From contig JNVV01000039.1 of the NCBI GenBank assembly GCA_000733355.1, forward strand, positions 360,627-424,626: a stretch of 64,000 nt of DNA. The letters are read 5' to 3'. The notes beneath the pieces are model-generated. The model ran no database searches. It was not told the DNA's origin and saw only the letters and a list, made by a program, of their open reading frames with translations. Every line of letters starts with the position of its first letter. Positions within the stretch are counted from its first letter, which is position 1. Shown one piece after another: positions 52,028-60,250 of the stretch. Source of the DNA: Falciphora oryzae (Eukaryota; Ascomycota; Sordariomycetes; Magnaporthales; Magnaporthaceae). Position numbers and translations under genes: made by a program.

Positions 52028-52806
52028 CACCTCCGGAGGCTAACGAACTCGATAGGGGGGATACCGGCACACTCGGTACACAAAGCCGTAACAACGGTGA
52101 TAATCCCTACGGCTTTATACGGGGCCGAGGTTTGGTATAGGGGCAAGACCAAACCACACCCGTATAAGCCGGCACGTCAACAAAGTACCCGGCAAGGCCA
52201 TTTAATCGAACGGGTCGATAAAGCCCTACAAGCGTCCCTTTAGGCAGTGGTACCAGCTTGGAAAACCATACCGATAAACGCTTTGCACTACGAATCCGGC
52301 ATTCCCGGCGCTGAAGCACTTTTGGAACAAGCCCGTTTCCGTTTTGCGGCCCGCATAAAGACGGTTCCGGAGGATCACCCCCTGGCCGCAGCGGCCAAGC
52401 CGATTTTCAATGCCCGGGGGCTTAGGGCAGGCGTGCCCGGCAGGCTTACGACCTCGCTGCAAAAGACGGCCGGACTCCTTCCGGCGTGCACCCGCCCGGC
52501 TTACCTCCCTTATAAATATACGGGGCTTACGGTGGCCACACAAGAAAAGCAAGCAGCCGCTAAAGCATTTATAGCGTAGCTTCGCACCCTCCCCCCTACC
52601 GACGTTATAGTATATAGCGACGGGTCCAAAGCGGAAAACGGGGCAGTTGGTTACGGCTGGGTAATCCACCAAGCCGGCCAACGCAAACTTTCCGGGCACG
52701 GCCGGCTGGCGCATCCGGCGGAAGTATTCGACGGCGAGGCGGAAGGGGGCCGGATGGGCCTCTGCAAAGCCGTTCGGAGCTTCCGTAACTGCATTTTCCA
52801 CCTGTG
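52028..52806 (+). mobile_element. LINE (Tad-like) ORF2 fragment, left part
   Basis: Plus-strand frame reads PTALYGAEVWYRGKTKPHPY (end of reverse transcriptase), then ALHYESGIPGAEALLEQARF, AGLLPACTRPAYLPYKYTGL and the start of RNase H: TDVIVYSDGSKAENGAVGYG with HQAGQRKLSGHGRLAHPAEV and FHLCLDN. The RNase H is broken after LDN by the insertion of a 6.5-kb element and continues at 59332. Left end truncated at the LTR-like sequence. RNase H-bearing I/Tad clade LINEs are frequent in filamentous fungi. Confidence 0.85.
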
Positions 52807-52815
52807 CCTCGATAA

Positions 52816-52834
52816 TAGTCTCAGTGGCTCAGAC
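52816..52834 (+). repeat. Left terminal inverted repeat
   Basis: TAGTCTCAGTGGCTCAGAC; compared with the reverse complement of the right end (TAGTCTCAAAGGCCCAAAC) 15 of 19 positions agree, and three of the four differences are transitions. Directly follows the 9-bp repeat CCTCGATAA. Confidence 0.7.
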
Positions 52835-53119
52835 CAGATAAGGGGCGAAGGTCACACAAGTCACTTTTTCTCCACTCCCAGCCATAGCATTAATTTAACC
52901 AATCATAATCCCCACACAACTTCGCCGCCATCTGGTTTGAGGTCGGATGGTGCGAAAAGCGTCATTGATTTTCTAAATCCTACCAAACCACCAAACCACC
53001 AAAATTGCATTCTTCCATCCCCCTTACCATACCACGCGTGCAATTCGCATCTACCAGGCGATTTATTCGAATCTGCGCTTACGAAAATTAAAATTCCTAC
53101 TATTTGTGCAATCTTTGCA

Positions 53120-56100
53120 ATGTTTTCCACATCGTCTTTTTCCTATTTGCTTGCCTTCCCTTCCGGGCAGCCGCCGCAAAATGCCCCTAATGCCGCGGTC
53201 CCTACGTCGGATTTTACGATTCCCCCAACATTACCACTTCCGCCGCCGTCGTTCGAATCCGACTTTAACTCCGAATCCGACTCCAAATCCGATACGCCGT
53301 TAAACATCTTCCCCAACTTAACGCCTCGTCCGCCTGCTTCCGATTCCCCTTCCGTCGCCCAGCATCGCCGATTGCAAAACCGTCGACCAAAGGTCGCCGC
53401 ATCTTCCCACGAACCCCGCCCCCACCTCCCATTTAACGATGCCTTCGAAGCGCCCGACGAAACTAACATATTCGCCGATAATCTAGTAAACGAAATATTA
53501 AAATGCTGGCGCGCCCGTTACCATACTATCCGCGGGCAGTATCATTCTACTTTCGCACATTTTATCAAACAATAGGCGTGCTAACGCCGCAGCGACGGTT
53601 AACGCAATAAACCTCGCCTCCATTAACTCCGCGCTTCTCTGCAAAACCCCGAAATCAAAAGCGCTCTTTTCGAAACCGGCGTTAAAGTCCGATTCGATAG
53701 CGAAAGCTAACCCGCAAACGCGTACCATACCACCCTCCGCCGAAAGCTCGACAACTTTACCGCATTAACCCTTTTAACACTTTCGACCCCAAATAGTATT
53801 ATGAAAGGGAAAACCTTTGCAGCGCTAAAAACATTTGCGACGTTACCTGGGTGAAAAAAAACCTTATCCAAAGCGATACGCGCTTTTAAAAACATGCGCC
53901 TTACTTATACCAGTTGCTAACTGCTGTTATAGCCAATTCCCGCGCCGATTGGGACTTTTACGGCCCTAACCAATATACCCCTAACCCTACAATAAAAAAG
54001 GGACCGTCCCCGCCTAAAAAAAACAAAAACATTAGCCCCCGGTTTTTAATCGCGAATTTAATAGCACACGCGCGGGCGCTTAAAAAAAGCAACTATTTAA
54101 AGCGGATATTTAAGGTGTATCAAATGCAAAGCGGGGTTACTAAAAAGGTAACGAATATGCTCGCGAAATTCGAAATTAATTCGTTTTACAGGGTTACGAA
54201 AAAGCAAATAGGCGGGCTAGTAAATAGGGCCACAGTACGTATACCAGCTAAATAATATATAATTATATAATTAGTTAACTAACGTGGTTCACAAGCGAGC
54301 CGCGCACACAAGCGAGTCGCGCACTTTAAAATCCCATACTAAACGCAATTTTCGACATCTTTGCTAACTCGACCAATTTTGATCCAAATTCGATGCAATT
54401 TTGTACATAACGTTTCAATTATATACCTGATTTTATATAATTATCTTCAATTTTATAACCCTAACCCGGGTGAGATATTAAGAAATTCGCTAATTTAACC
54501 CCTGTATTTTCAATATCTTACCCGGGTTAGGGTTATAAAATTAAAGATAATTACATAAAATCAAATATATAGTTAAAACGTTATATACAAAATTGCATCG
54601 AATTTGGATCAAAATTGGTCGAGTTAGCAAGGATGTCGAAAATTGCGTTTAATATGGGATTTTAAAGTGCGCGACTCGCTTGTGTGCGCGGCTCGCTTAT
54701 AAACCACGTTATAAATATTTTATTTAAAAAAACCTTAAACGCATCGCACTCGATCCCAATCTCACCTTCGTTTACGACAATTTTAACTTTATAAACCGGG
54801 TCCAAAACTTCAGTTATAACCGCAAAAACGGTATACGGAACATTACCATTTGCTTCGCCATCGGGAATCCTAACATCGTCCGCTACACCCAATTTTAATA
54901 GCATACAACCGTACCGTTTAACGACGAATGGCTTTTAGGGCCGTATATATCCGTATCACCTTAAACTATAGCGCAATGCTCCGATTTTTTTTTCCGCCAT
55001 AAAACGATGCATCATCTTTTTAAAAGGAAACTCCCTTTTTATTTCCCAAACCGTCAGTTCCCCGAAATTGCCCGCGTTATTACGCCAAAATCCTACATCA
55101 TCCAAACCCCTACTATTATAAAAAACGAAAAGGAGCTTGGCGGCGTCCTTCGGATATACGAAAAATTATTCCAAAGATTGCTCGGCCTTAAACCGGACAT
55201 TTTCGATTACAATAACGTACTTTTCCTCCTGCATAGCGACCAAAAAACCACGTCCTTTATTAAACATATTTAATCTGCTTAATTCGAATGCACGACACCT
55301 TTCGACCGCAAGCAATGGATGCTTCCTATCCCGGCATTTTTCACGTCCAGCACAATTTTATTTATTATATTTGGAAAGAATTTTCTCCTTTGGTTAAAGC
55401 CGACGTATTGGGCCTAAATCGCACCCAAAAACTTTCGGTTGCCAAACTAAAGTTTTACTATACGATTTAATTACTCCAAAACGCCTACCGCGCACGCGTC
55501 CTCGCTATAATTATATACGTACTGCAACAGGACGACAAACTTCCCAAAGGTTAAAACCTCACCCTTTTTGCGGTAAAGGATGCATTTGCTACGGCGCCCC
55601 CAAATTACATAAACCAAACATTAGCCAAAATACACATTAACGCATTTTCTTAACGTACTACTACTAATTTGTACCCAAATACACCTGGACTTATTAACAT
55701 CCCTTTCCGGTTACAATATCGGTACCTCCAAATTATACAACTTTTTTGGACTATTAACGAAGCTATACGCCGGGGAAATTTCGGCGTCCTTCAATAGCAT
55801 ATCCCTTTCCTTATATTTTTTTTTACGGATGTAAAACCAAAAACTATGGGCTAAAAATGCTGTATCTGGTTTGGCTTTTGCATCCAAAAGTTACAAACGA
55901 GCCGCTTCGTACGGGTATCTTTCGGTTAGGTCTCGTCCGCTATATTACAGCCGGCAACGGGTTTAAACCTATCAACCTTACCATCAAACACCTTAATAAA
56001 GCATTTTCGCTCGATATCCAAACCAATAAAAACTTTACCTATAATATGTGGGCTACTTTTAAAAACTATGCCGCTTTCGAACCGATAAAAGCAGTTATTC

Positions 56101-56570
56101 GGAAGGTATTGGAAATATAATTTAGCTAATACAATAATGCTCGATACATAATAGCATTAACTAAGCAAAACGTCCTGCAATATACTTACCTGCTTATTAA
56201 TAACGGGAATGGGAGCAGGTACGACAAAGTGAATTAAAACGCCGAATTCGATACCCCGCCGCTTTTCCAAAAAGGAATAAAGCATATGCTTAATAGCAAA
56301 TTAAATACGTTTAATCGAACCATTATCCGGCCCATCAACGTATATTATTAGCAAGGTTTAGCAATAGCAGAAAAGGGAGTAGCCGATCTAGTCATCGAAA
56401 ATAAAAAGGGCGAGCGTGAATATTTTTTAAGGGACGACGACGATAGCAGGGCTGAGGCGTAAATGCTGGGTTTATCCCGGAGTTCCGCAACGCTAAATAA
56501 GGACCTCCCTAATATCCTCCGTCGGCCCACTGCACCCGTTATCGTCTTTTCGGCGGGGTTAACTGCTTAA
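53120..56570 (+). pseudogene. DUF6589-like protein gene, decayed and interrupted
   Basis: From ATG 53120 (MFSTSSFSYLLAFPSGQPPQ) the plus strand can be followed for about 1000 codons with many stops. Landmarks: NLVNEILKCWRARYHTIRGQ; ISPRFLIANLIAHARALKKS and YQMQSGVTKKVTNMLAKF; after the foldback insert TFVYDNFNF; then VITPKSYIIQTPTIIKNEKE, FDYNNVLFLLHSDQKTTSFI, FDRKQWMLPIPA, FHVQHNFIYYIWKEF; and a charged tail (FLRDDDDSRAEA). From memory this is the architecture of fungal DUF6589 (PF20231) proteins, often found in repeats. The Asp residues in YDNF and HSDQK could belong to an RNase H-fold (DDE/D) active site; that is inference. The gene ends convergent with the helicase, overlapping by about 30 bp. 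Confidence 0.65.
54280..54711. mobile_element. 432-bp foldback/MITE element
   Basis: Two 200-bp arms (54280-54479 and 54512-54711) are inverted copies around a 32-bp loop. Ends are TAACGTGG...CCACGTTA, so the target was probably TA. Arm differences, where I compared them, are C/T or G/A only. Inner arm ends carry AACCCTAACCCGGG, containing the telomere-like CCCTAA. It has no coding capacity and interrupts the DUF6589-like gene, so it inserted after the host element. TA target and long arms fit a Tc1/mariner-type non-autonomous element. Confidence 0.85.
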
Positions 56571-58740
56571 AAACTCTAAATGCCCTTATATTCCATTTCT
56601 TTCGCCCGTTTAAACCAGCACCAGCAAGCTGGAACGCTTTAGCCCTACGGTTAGCCTTATCTTTTTCCCTCCACGTATAATATGCTACTATGCCCCTAGC
56701 TTTAATATCCTCGCATTTTTGCACTAACAGTTGGCCGTATGGAACGAGCTAATGCTTGCATGTACTTTAGCTAATAGCCTTTACCCGCCGGCACAGGTCG
56801 TTAACGTCCTAAATGAGCCTATCGGTTAATTTAAAATCAAGCGAAAACTGTACCGCAATTTCGGGCTTTAACATCCATTCGCCAAACAAATCAAGCCATC
56901 GCCACTCGTCGGGGCTAATAACGTATATAGCAAAATAAAACGCATATTTTATTAACTCTTAGTAAATAAACCATTCCATCGTACGTACGCGTACAATAAA
57001 ATCCTTCGATTTTTCAACCACCGTTAGAAGAAATCGCCCGAACTTATAGTAGCATACGTTGCAGCATTTAATATGCTCGATTAACGAAGGATTCACTTTT
57101 TGCAACAAGTTAAATGTCGCTTACCTAAAGCATTTGGCATTAGCGAATTCGTACATTTCGGGATGCGCCTTTTAAAATTTTCCGCGTCGGCGGATGTCGT
57201 CGTTTATCCATTTTTCGTATTATTTCCTGGAAAAAATACCTAATTCCAAATCAAATTCGCTACCAATTACCGATATTATTTAGCTGCCGGCCATACTGGA
57301 TTCCACGTCGAAAATGGAAAATCGGGCTTAAAAATAGTCCGACCCTAACAGTTAAAAATCGTTTGCCTTTACAGACGCACCGAAAACGGCTATTCCAAAC
57401 CGCAAACTACTAAATACCGTAAAAGTATAAGTTTTTTTCAAACCACGTTTAGGTTTAACTGGTTTAGGGATATTAATCCCTATAGTATCGAAATACCAAT
57501 AGGGGGCAAAAAAATAAGCTATACCCTGCCCCACAACGGACCGGAACGCTTTACCGAACCGCTGGACCAAATCCGCCATATCTAATAAAATCGGTGCTTT
57601 AAATTGTACCACGCGCATTACATCTAAAATATCTATGCACATACCCAGCGATACAATAGCTAAAATAAATCGAATCGTAAAATCGGTACGCCGGAATATG
57701 TTATAAATAATGCGCTAATCCGTCGATGGTGTTAAGGAATAATAGGTCATAATAGTGCGGGCAACGGTATTTTTATCGACCCTTTTCAACGTTAAATAAT
57801 AGAGGAATAAATAACGAGCGTTAACGAGTTCCGATTTATTATTTATATAAATAATAGTTTTAGGAATAAATTAAAAAGGTGTGTCCGGTTGGACGTTAGC
57901 GAAAAAAAACAGCAATAAATTGTAATTTTTTTGCAATTTCTTCCTTACTAACGCTTGGAAAACGATAGTAATATCTAACCGGTTAATAAACGTACGTATA
58001 ATCCGGAACTAGTGCACGCCTAAACCGAATTGCCGGAAACCGGTATAAAATAATACGAAAGCTTTTGCTTTTGCGGTTAAAGTGGCAATACACCCAAAAA
58101 AAGGAATAAATATAGGGATAGCAAACCGGATTAGGTAAAAATTGGGGTAAAAAATGCGGAATTTTTTCCATTAATAAACCGTATGGAGTTCGTTAATGGC
58201 AATAAACGCAATGTGCTAGTTAAATTCAATATAGCGGAGGAAAGCGAAAAACCGCGCATTTGTGGCTTGTTTCGGACCCAGGAGGATGTGGGTGTATTGC
58301 GTGGCTTTTTATGCGTTCCAAATATTGGCATCCTATTATTTATATATTAGTATTTATTACTTCCATTAATTTAACCGCGTAAAGGAGTACTTTGCGTATA
58401 GTTTGGTTAATAAAGATGGGGTTAGCAAAAGGGAACCTAACAACCATTTCGGCTTATTTTTCCCCCAATTTGCTTAAAGGGATAATCTGGATAGTAATAT
58501 GCCTGTTTTTAATAACAAACATTGCTTGGAATACGATGCTTTTACCGTATCCAATTTTAGCAATAAGTATCGTATTTCCTAATTAGTAAATAATACGCCG
58601 GATGCACTCAATTTAATCGGGTTTAAAATAACGGGGTTCCTAGCCTGCTAGCGTTTCCTGGTTAAAAAAAAACGTAATAACAGCTTTTATAAACTGTTTC
58701 TGCATATCGAAATCGTTTGCGTATGCGGAATACTCATACA
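56539..58740 (-). pseudogene. RecQ-like DExH helicase gene, decayed
   Basis: Minus-strand reading with several stops: ECIRRII then NTILIAKIGYGKSIVFQAMF (motif I; GYGKS Walker A) and ITIQIIPLSKLGEK (motif Ia); THILLGPKQATNARFFAFLR; HIAFIAINELHTVY (motif II, with Asn where DExH needs Asp); IFIPFFGCIATLTAKAKAF (motif III); IDILDVMRVVQFKAPILLDM and ADLVQRFGKAFRSVVGQGIA (motifs V-VI, QRFGR changed to QRFGK), then FFAPYWYFDTIGINIPKPVK. The order and spacing are those of RecQ-family DNA helicases. The C-terminal part to 56539 has CxxC-like and basic segments. Asp-to-Asn and Arg-to-Lys changes are G-to-A on the coding strand, as expected from RIP. Confidence 0.75.
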
Positions 58741-59303
58741 ATTCTGAAATAACCTAACGGAAAGGCACGGTTTAAACCTGCTTTCCAACCAAATTTTTAC
58801 TGCCAACGATAGCAAAAAGCAAAAACGCAACACGGGGGGCGCGAGCTATTAGCCCAGCCATATTCGGCTCTAAATTTGGAGCCGGTACTAAACCTGGTGG
58901 TCGATTTGACATAGGGGTAGCTGGGTAAAGCTATTCCCAAAGTGTAAGAAATTGCTCCTCCTCGATCAGCAAACCTATTTCTAATCCGAATACCGAACAC
59001 AAAAAAATATCATTGGATACAAAACATTAAGCTTACCCCCAACGTTTTATTTTTAAACCCAAATAAATTGGGTCAAATAGCGAAATTTTGGAGTAAAGTT
59101 TGTGGGATTTTTATATTGTATGGGCGATCCCAAAGTGTAAGCCCGAAAATCACCATGCGATCCCAAACTTAAACCACAAAAAAACCCCAGCCCCACAATA
59201 CATCTGCACGGACCAGTAACTCGAGCGTAAGCCACATCGTAAGCCACAACCCACCGGAGGTGGGTCGCTTACTAAAGGTGGGTTCCCTTTTTGTGGGCTT
59301 TAA

Positions 59304-59322
59304 GTTTGGGCCTTTGAGACTA
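59304..59322 (-). repeat. Right terminal inverted repeat
   Basis: Reverse complement TAGTCTCAAAGGCCCAAAC mirrors the left end. Just inside are short subterminal motifs, including a hairpin ACCCACCGGAGGTGGGT (~59245-59262) and repeated GTAAGCCAC units. Followed by the second CCTCGATAA. Confidence 0.7.
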
Positions 59323-59331
59323 CCTCGATAA

Positions 59332-60250
59332 CACTTCGGCGGCCAACGGCTTCCTAAGCACGGCCCCTAACAGTTTATAAGGGGCTTTTAAAGAGGTCCA
59401 TTTCTTTATGGACAAACACCGGGTACACGTCCGTTGGTCCCCGGGTTATACGGGAATCCCCGGAAACGAAGAGGCCGATGCCGAAGCAAAGCTGGGATCG
59501 GCTTTGCCGATACCCCAACATTCCAAGCCAACGGTGGCCGGAGTAAAGGCTTTAGCCCGGAAAATGGCCCGGGACGCCCGAAACGCCTGGTACGAAAACA
59601 ACCTACCGGACCGGTATAAGGCTATAGGCCTCCCGCCGGCACCACGGCCCGCACCCGAAGCTTTACAGCTGCACCGGAAAGTGTTACAGCGGCTAATAGC
59701 CGCACGCACGGGGCATGGGGACTTCGACTGGTACCACCGAAAGTACCAGCACGAAAACGATAACCCGTGCCGTTGCGGAAGAAACAAGTCCCCCTCCCAC
59801 CCTGTATATTACAGGCTGGCTAAGGCGGCAGAAAACAAGTGGCCTATAACGGACCCCTTCCCGGCTTTTAATAGGCCCAGATATTGGAAACGGCTATTGC
59901 AAAAGCCTTTCCTTTTTGCTTCGTTCGTTGAAGCTACCAACTATTACACTATCGCTAGGCGATAGTAACAGGGCCTAAGTAGCCCGTATATAACCTTTTT
60001 TCCTTTTTCCTTTGCATTTTTCACTTTTCCTTTGTACTATTAGGATTAGCAGTAAGCTCGTTAGTCCCCCGCACCTCCGGCCGGGCCCAGGGGAGGTCCC
60101 GAGGACCCCCCCGCCCAACCCGGCCTTACCCCTTTTCCGGCACACCCGCCGGCCGACAGCACCATTACCACTCGCAGCGCTTCACAACGCCCCGGCGTAT
60201 ACACATACGCCCTACCGCCGATCGCCCGCTCACTAACAAGGAGCGCCGGA
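59332..60250 (+). mobile_element. LINE (Tad-like) ORF2 fragment, right part and 3' end
   Basis: Continues the interrupted RNase H: TSAANGFLSTAPNSL, a TAA stop, then VHVRWSPGYTGIPGNEEADA (the conserved RNase H end HxxxGxxGNExAD) and a C-terminal domain with HGDFDWYHRKYQHENDNPCR and CGRNKSPSHPVYYR (zinc-knuckle-like CxC...H), ending at a stop near 59965. About 280 bp of 3' untranslated DNA follow. Fewer stops here than in neighbouring elements. Confidence 0.8.

Follow-up and report, generated by a model that had tools for sequence, protein, structure and literature searches.

A repeat-decayed fungal DNA transposon that pairs a DUF6589 gene with a RecQ-family helicase gene, a probable element of the AcademH kind

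Among the described DNA transposons that bear on the present locus is AcademH, a lineage of the Academ superfamily that was reportedly defined in Kojima 2020 (Mob DNA 11:15). PMC3627910 refers to a 'RecQ Helicase in Academ', and PMC10045372 presents AcademH as a helicase-bearing Academ lineage, with duplications of 9 or 10 bp as against 3 or 4 bp in AcademX, a difference that this source ties to the presence of a helicase versus a nuclease. Low copy numbers of AcademH in Basidiomycota, Ascomycota and Mucoromycota are noted in PMC10799480. KolobokH, known only from fungi, also carries a RecQ helicase (PMC9587614), and this source gives TTAA duplications for Kolobok and a C/DxxH signature common to Kolobok, hAT and P. 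For hAT elements, PMC12730594 gives duplications of 8 bp as a rule, with 5-, 6- and 7-bp exceptions.

The window analyzed here, a stretch of 64,000 nucleotides of Falciphora oryzae DNA (C39:360627-424626 of the 50.2-Mb, 123-contig genome G000), contains the 9-bp sequence CCTCGATAA at positions 52807-52815 and 59323-59331 (left and right target site duplications, no strand assigned). The two copies bracket a 6507-bp segment (52816-59322, plus strand) with the ends TAGTCTCA...TGAGACTA; flanks, segment and ends lie exactly at the positions that the original prediction had given. The chance of any given 9/9 match is 4^-9, approximately 4e-6. When the flanks are joined with one copy of the repeat, they read ...IFHLCLDNTSAANGFLSTAPNSL*GAFKEVHFFMDKHRVHVRWSPGYTGIPGNEEADAEAKLG in a single frame, the RNase H reading of a LINE that itself contains one stop farther along. 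Among the 41 genomic matches listed for the 480-bp joined flanks (40 of 98 candidates scored), 40 cross the junction and 32 extend over the full stretch from base 1 to base 480, with identities of 89-96%; such matches represent paralogous empty sites. The joined flanks are thus in the LINE frame and are crossed by genomic matches at the junction, and therefore the insertion was precise, which bears out the claim that excision restores the LINE reading. The LINE with this reading extends over 52580-52815 and 59332-59965, stop included, and occurs at approximately 40 genomic places among the candidates scored.

The inverted-repeat ends recognized earlier are present and extend further than had been claimed: TAGTCTCA is just the outermost 8 bp of a terminal inverted repeat of ~19 bp (left, 52816-52834, plus strand; right, 59304-59322, minus strand). 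Across five copies compared, the two ends pair at 15/19 positions in the window copy, 17/19 in L010 and L024, and 18/19 in L018 and L031, a terminal-inverted-repeat feature shared with AcademH. Further inward, the left end contains a subterminal inverted repeat (52828-52839, plus strand; inner partner 52930-52941) that can also be recognized by eye at the left of L010, L018 and L031, and the right end contains the subterminal inverted repeat AACCCACC/GGTGGGTT (59248-59284, plus strand; halves 59248-59255 and 59277-59284) along with an additional 23-nt pair, 87% complementary, at 59162-59184 and 59288-59310.

Searches of the genome with a 760-bp left-end query and a 623-bp right-end query yielded at least 31 and at least 32 matches, respectively, the window included in both and some of the matches being parts of one copy. 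We examined 26 loci, namely the window and 25 others, and found element-gene sequence in 25 of them. Left-end identity separates the copies into a close group of eight, with values of 90-96% relative to the window copy; a second set, at ~69-74% in cases where the query matched over most of its length; and a third group consisting of L030, L031 and L033. The copies examined have the same ends, a point on which differing ends would have spoken against the original prediction. Both ends are readable in 19 copies, and 15 of these have 9-bp duplications, 12 of them perfect (the window, L009, L010, L011, L017, L018, L019, L024, L026, L027, L029 and L031) and three with one mismatch (L015, L016 and L023). 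The 9 bases are unmatched in the remaining four (L014, L020, L021 and L025); in two of these, L020 and L021, an imperfect match of 7-8 bp can be made out by eye at a shifted position. The ends of L023, L026, L027 and L029 are 14 to 58 kb apart, presumably due to nested insertions, and were paired partly via the duplication itself, so that four of the 15 duplications rest in part on the pairing, that of L027 being a simple CGA repeat; minus these four, the remaining 15 copies comprise nine at 9/9, two at 8/9 and four unmatched. There is no obvious common motif among the 9-bp duplications of the copies.

The window copy is decayed by C-to-T and G-to-A mutation, and the natural copy L010 was used as its reference. 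L010 is 6084 bp long, has a 9/9 duplication and contains two genes that are both free of stops and consist of two exons each with a short intron (intron borders read by eye), with just ~300-400 bp outside the two genes at either end. Of 6075 aligned bases, 682 differ between the two copies; 661 of the differences are C-to-T or G-to-A, and in 564 of these 661 the changed base belongs to a CpA or CpT dinucleotide or to the complement of one. The GC content is 0.406 in the window copy and 0.516 in L010. Such a mutation pattern is the signature of repeat-induced point mutation (RIP) and, because the window copy shows it against L010, we read the two decayed frames as RIP products.

On the plus strand, exon 1 of the first gene corresponds to 53120-54234 (tblastn with L010 exon 1, 75% identity; intron border by eye from L010) and exon 2, which carries PF20231, the predicted transposase core, to 54728-56462 (76% identity to L010 exon 2), both decayed. 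The second gene lies on the minus strand, with decayed exon 1 (motif I side) at 58391-58912 (82% identity to L010; borders by eye from L010) and decayed exon 2 (motifs II-VI and a cysteine cluster) at 56539-58332 (76% identity). Pieces of the window match Pfam DUF6589 on the plus strand (E 1.9e-5 and 9.2e-4) and Helicase_C on the minus strand (E 2.8e-4), all under Pfam's cut-offs, in agreement with the two convergent decayed genes predicted. In L010, exon 2 of the plus-strand gene is DUF6589 (PF20231) with E 1.6e-53, past the Pfam cut-off.

For the minus-strand gene of L010, the matches to Helicase_C (3.9e-12) and DEAD (6.2e-6) pass the Pfam cut-offs, TIGR00614 is matched with E 3.3e-22, which is below the model's cut-off, and chains of WRN and RecQ are matched in the PDB. 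The protein contains AKTGYGKS, DELH and GCTATLT, which we take to be motifs I, II and III, respectively, and a cysteine cluster, CFR...CCNAC, that looks like the RecQ zinc-binding subdomain. Judged by sequence, this gene is a RecQ-family helicase, as originally recognized.

Copies with a single gene are not the rule, a point that the original prediction had singled out: both genes are found, convergent each time, in 17 of the 26 loci, the DUF6589 gene alone in eight, the helicase alone in none and neither in one (L032). In three of the DUF6589-only loci (L023, L026 and L027) the right end is beyond the fetched stretch and in L028 the contig end is reached; in the other four (L012, L013, L022 and L030) there is no helicase within ~9.6 kb of the left end. 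Comparison of L010 with L018 gives dN/dS of 0.08 and 0.26 for exons 2 and 1 of the DUF6589 gene, respectively, and of 0.21 for exon 1 of the helicase gene, with saturation of synonymous sites in four of seven comparisons with L031; as far as substitution ratios go, these values show both convergent genes to be under constraint.

Protein searches identified 33 relatives of the DUF6589 protein and 39 of the helicase. Seven DUF6589/helicase pairs share a source and an equally long longest contig, for example, in Annulohypoxylon truncatum (7473), Achaetomium macrosporum (14770) and a JGI contig (97513), compared with no pair in 14 and one pair in two of sixteen shifted control comparisons. These results, judged from equal contig sizes alone, suggest that the two genes occur together on seven further contigs in public data. 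Hosts commonly possess RecQ helicase genes of their own, and the helicase might accordingly be a captured host gene with no role in transposition; this seems quite improbable, given its low dN/dS, its unchanging place and orientation across three subfamilies (17 of 26 loci) and the seven pairs on equally long contigs elsewhere.

The DUF6589 protein is probably the transposase of the element, as judged from predicted models. Both of two models match the Hermes transposase and one (model 1) also matches the P element; the fold call needed a second aligner and a second model, Foldseek alone being too weak. In the predicted RNase H core, as in those of hAT (Hermes) and the P element, helices are inserted ahead of the final acidic residue, and a conserved D, D and E, the candidate residues D17, D171 and E421, are located at RNase H-fold positions in the models, where they would act in catalysis. 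A hAT-like catalytic fold is predicted by both models, and the resemblance to the P element is confined to model 1; the listing for model 2 is without rows for RAG1, Transib and the P element, which proves nothing either way. The RNase H-like DDE core that the original prediction had proposed to look for is in keeping with these matches, and the reading of the element as a DDE cut-and-paste transposon agrees with the shared ends, the 9-bp duplications and the predicted transposase fold.

Unlike the fold, the sequence of the protein revealed no similarity to hAT (Hermes) or the P element, either in a PDB profile search, where the DUF6589 profile retrieved two unrelated rows, or in Pfam searches with the members of alignment A1. 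This alignment comprises the 33 members (P0032 and P0034, which have no Pfam domain, were excluded), which have no common Pfam family apart from DUF6589 and show no match to MULE or hAT families at E <= 0.1, although a remote relationship to MULEs could lie beyond this threshold. A search of a viral fold library produced no match at E <= 0.001. From 7995 scored candidates, a distant-relative DUF6589 profile aimed at an XPG-bearing Academ protein retrieved 36 rows, each of them with DUF6589. No second transposase gene was noticed in L010 among the frames looked at.

A Mutator-like (MULE) or hAT element with the two genes as passengers would agree with the MULE duplication length of ~9 bp or with the likeness of the predicted fold to hAT Hermes. 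We consider it very unlikely because the 33 aligned members match no MULE or hAT Pfam family at the above threshold and because three subfamilies have retained the two genes, which, judged from equal contig sizes, also occur together in other species. The 9-bp duplications are also unlike the 8-bp rule for hAT (PMC12730594). Transposons of the hAT and P element kinds are not known to carry a RecQ gene. RAG-like and Transib elements differ from the present one in the helper gene, and their ends and duplication length differ as well.

KolobokH resembles the element as a fungal DNA transposon with a RecQ helicase, and the C/DxxH signature of Kolobok is also present in hAT and P, while model 1 resembles Hermes and the P element; according to PMC9587614, however, Kolobok makes 4-bp TTAA duplications and the KolobokH helicase is downstream of the transposase domain, whereas the present copies have duplications of 9 bp and varied sequence (15 of 19 copies) and an opposite-strand helicase in 17 of 17 two-gene loci. 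That this is a Kolobok transposon with a RecQ helicase is hardly credible.

The likeness to AcademH is more extensive: a fungal DNA transposon with a helicase gene inside the element, RecQ and DUF6589 being together in the 17 two-gene loci, and duplications (12/19 at 9/9, 3/19 at 8/9 and 4/19 without) that compare with the 9 or 10 bp given in PMC10045372. Because the published helicase and 9-10 bp duplications of Academ/AcademH fit and Kolobok makes TTAA, we file the element as new AcademH families, matched by the description of AcademH and not by its transposase sequence. Unlike AcademH as described, the transposase here is tied to Pfam DUF6589. Taken together, we assign a probability of approximately 0.84 to the reading that the segment is a copy, decayed by RIP, of an autonomous AcademH-type DNA transposon in which DUF6589 is an RNase H-fold DDE transposase and the RecQ helicase is part of the element. 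It is strongly suggested that DUF6589 is the AcademH transposase, which would place the protein in the same lineage as the Academ transposase. The original inference of a transposase family with its own RecQ helicase holds with regard to the shared ends, the 15 of 19 duplications and the 17 of 26 loci with both genes; its hint that a superfamily with this pair is undescribed does not, since PMC3627910 and PMC10045372 already print it.

Alternatively, the DUF6589 transposases might form a separate superfamily that is not Academ and that acquired the RecQ helicase and the 9-bp duplications independently. The 33 aligned relatives are without any common Pfam family besides DUF6589, and nobody in the literature library searched links DUF6589 to Academ in print, both of which would accord with this possibility. 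A fungal host, a RecQ helicase and a 9-10 bp duplication are, however, already what is printed for Academ/AcademH, and it would take a coincidence for another lineage to unite all three. We regard such a superfamily as unlikely and, to the same degree, its extended version, namely a DUF6589 superfamily outside Academ whose members, in fungi and in metagenomic lineages alike, have a dedicated RecQ helicase, so that a DDE transposase would have been combined independently for a second time with RecQ and a 9-bp stagger.

With the element read as AcademH, the DUF6589 protein would bind the 19-bp terminal and the subterminal repeats, excise the element and insert it with a 9-bp stagger, giving rise to the 9-bp duplication. 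The RecQ helicase would unwind DNA 3' to 5'. This step might take place at the transposon ends; more likely, it would assist the homology-templated repair of the gap left at the donor site. In flies, gaps left by P elements are repaired from a template in a step that involves BLM, a RecQ helicase of the host. To a role in donor-gap repair we give roughly even odds; end unwinding is possible and clearly less probable, and some other role appears less probable still.

The assignment gives a Pfam family of unknown function, DUF6589, a proposed function, that of the transposase of helicase-bearing Academ elements. No paper on DUF6589, nor any that pairs PF20231 with a transposase, was found in the literature library searched and, within that library, naming DUF6589 as the transposase of this kind of element may be new in print. 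If the assignment is correct, fungal proteins annotated as 'DUF6589 domain-containing' and 'P-loop containing nucleoside triphosphate hydrolase' become recognizable as halves of one transposon, and L010, with both genes stop-free, makes it testable why some transposons carry a RecQ helicase.

Several further observations concern individual copies. A plasmid collection searched with the element gave no match. L032, found via ~127 bp of left end that are 73% alike, was rejected as a full member on account of its lack of both element genes; the largest of its frames correspond to an oligopeptide transporter and to a double zinc ribbon frame in which the match to a resolvase falls below the threshold, and its left end, perhaps a relic or a non-autonomous relative, is located within some kilobases of the transporter gene. 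The close copies L014, L015 and L016 have ~300 bases more than L010; the extra stretch separates the two genes in L014 and L015 and lies within DUF6589 exon 2 in L016. At L029/L037 (G000 C69:68920-126704), left and right ends of the second subfamily are 57.8 kb apart, both flanked by GGGATAAAG, and the right end of another copy, inverted, follows after 144 bp; this copy appears to have taken nested insertions, one from its own kin. In the window copy, the intron of the DUF6589 gene contains a nested 428-bp palindromic MITE-like insertion (54282-54709, plus strand) that is missing from L010 and has, by eye, a TA duplication at 54280-54281 and 54710-54711. The two strands of this fold-back MITE align with each other at 91%, and the palindrome is repeated in the genome, with at least 104 match rows (40 of 339 candidates scored), many copies being listed once per strand.
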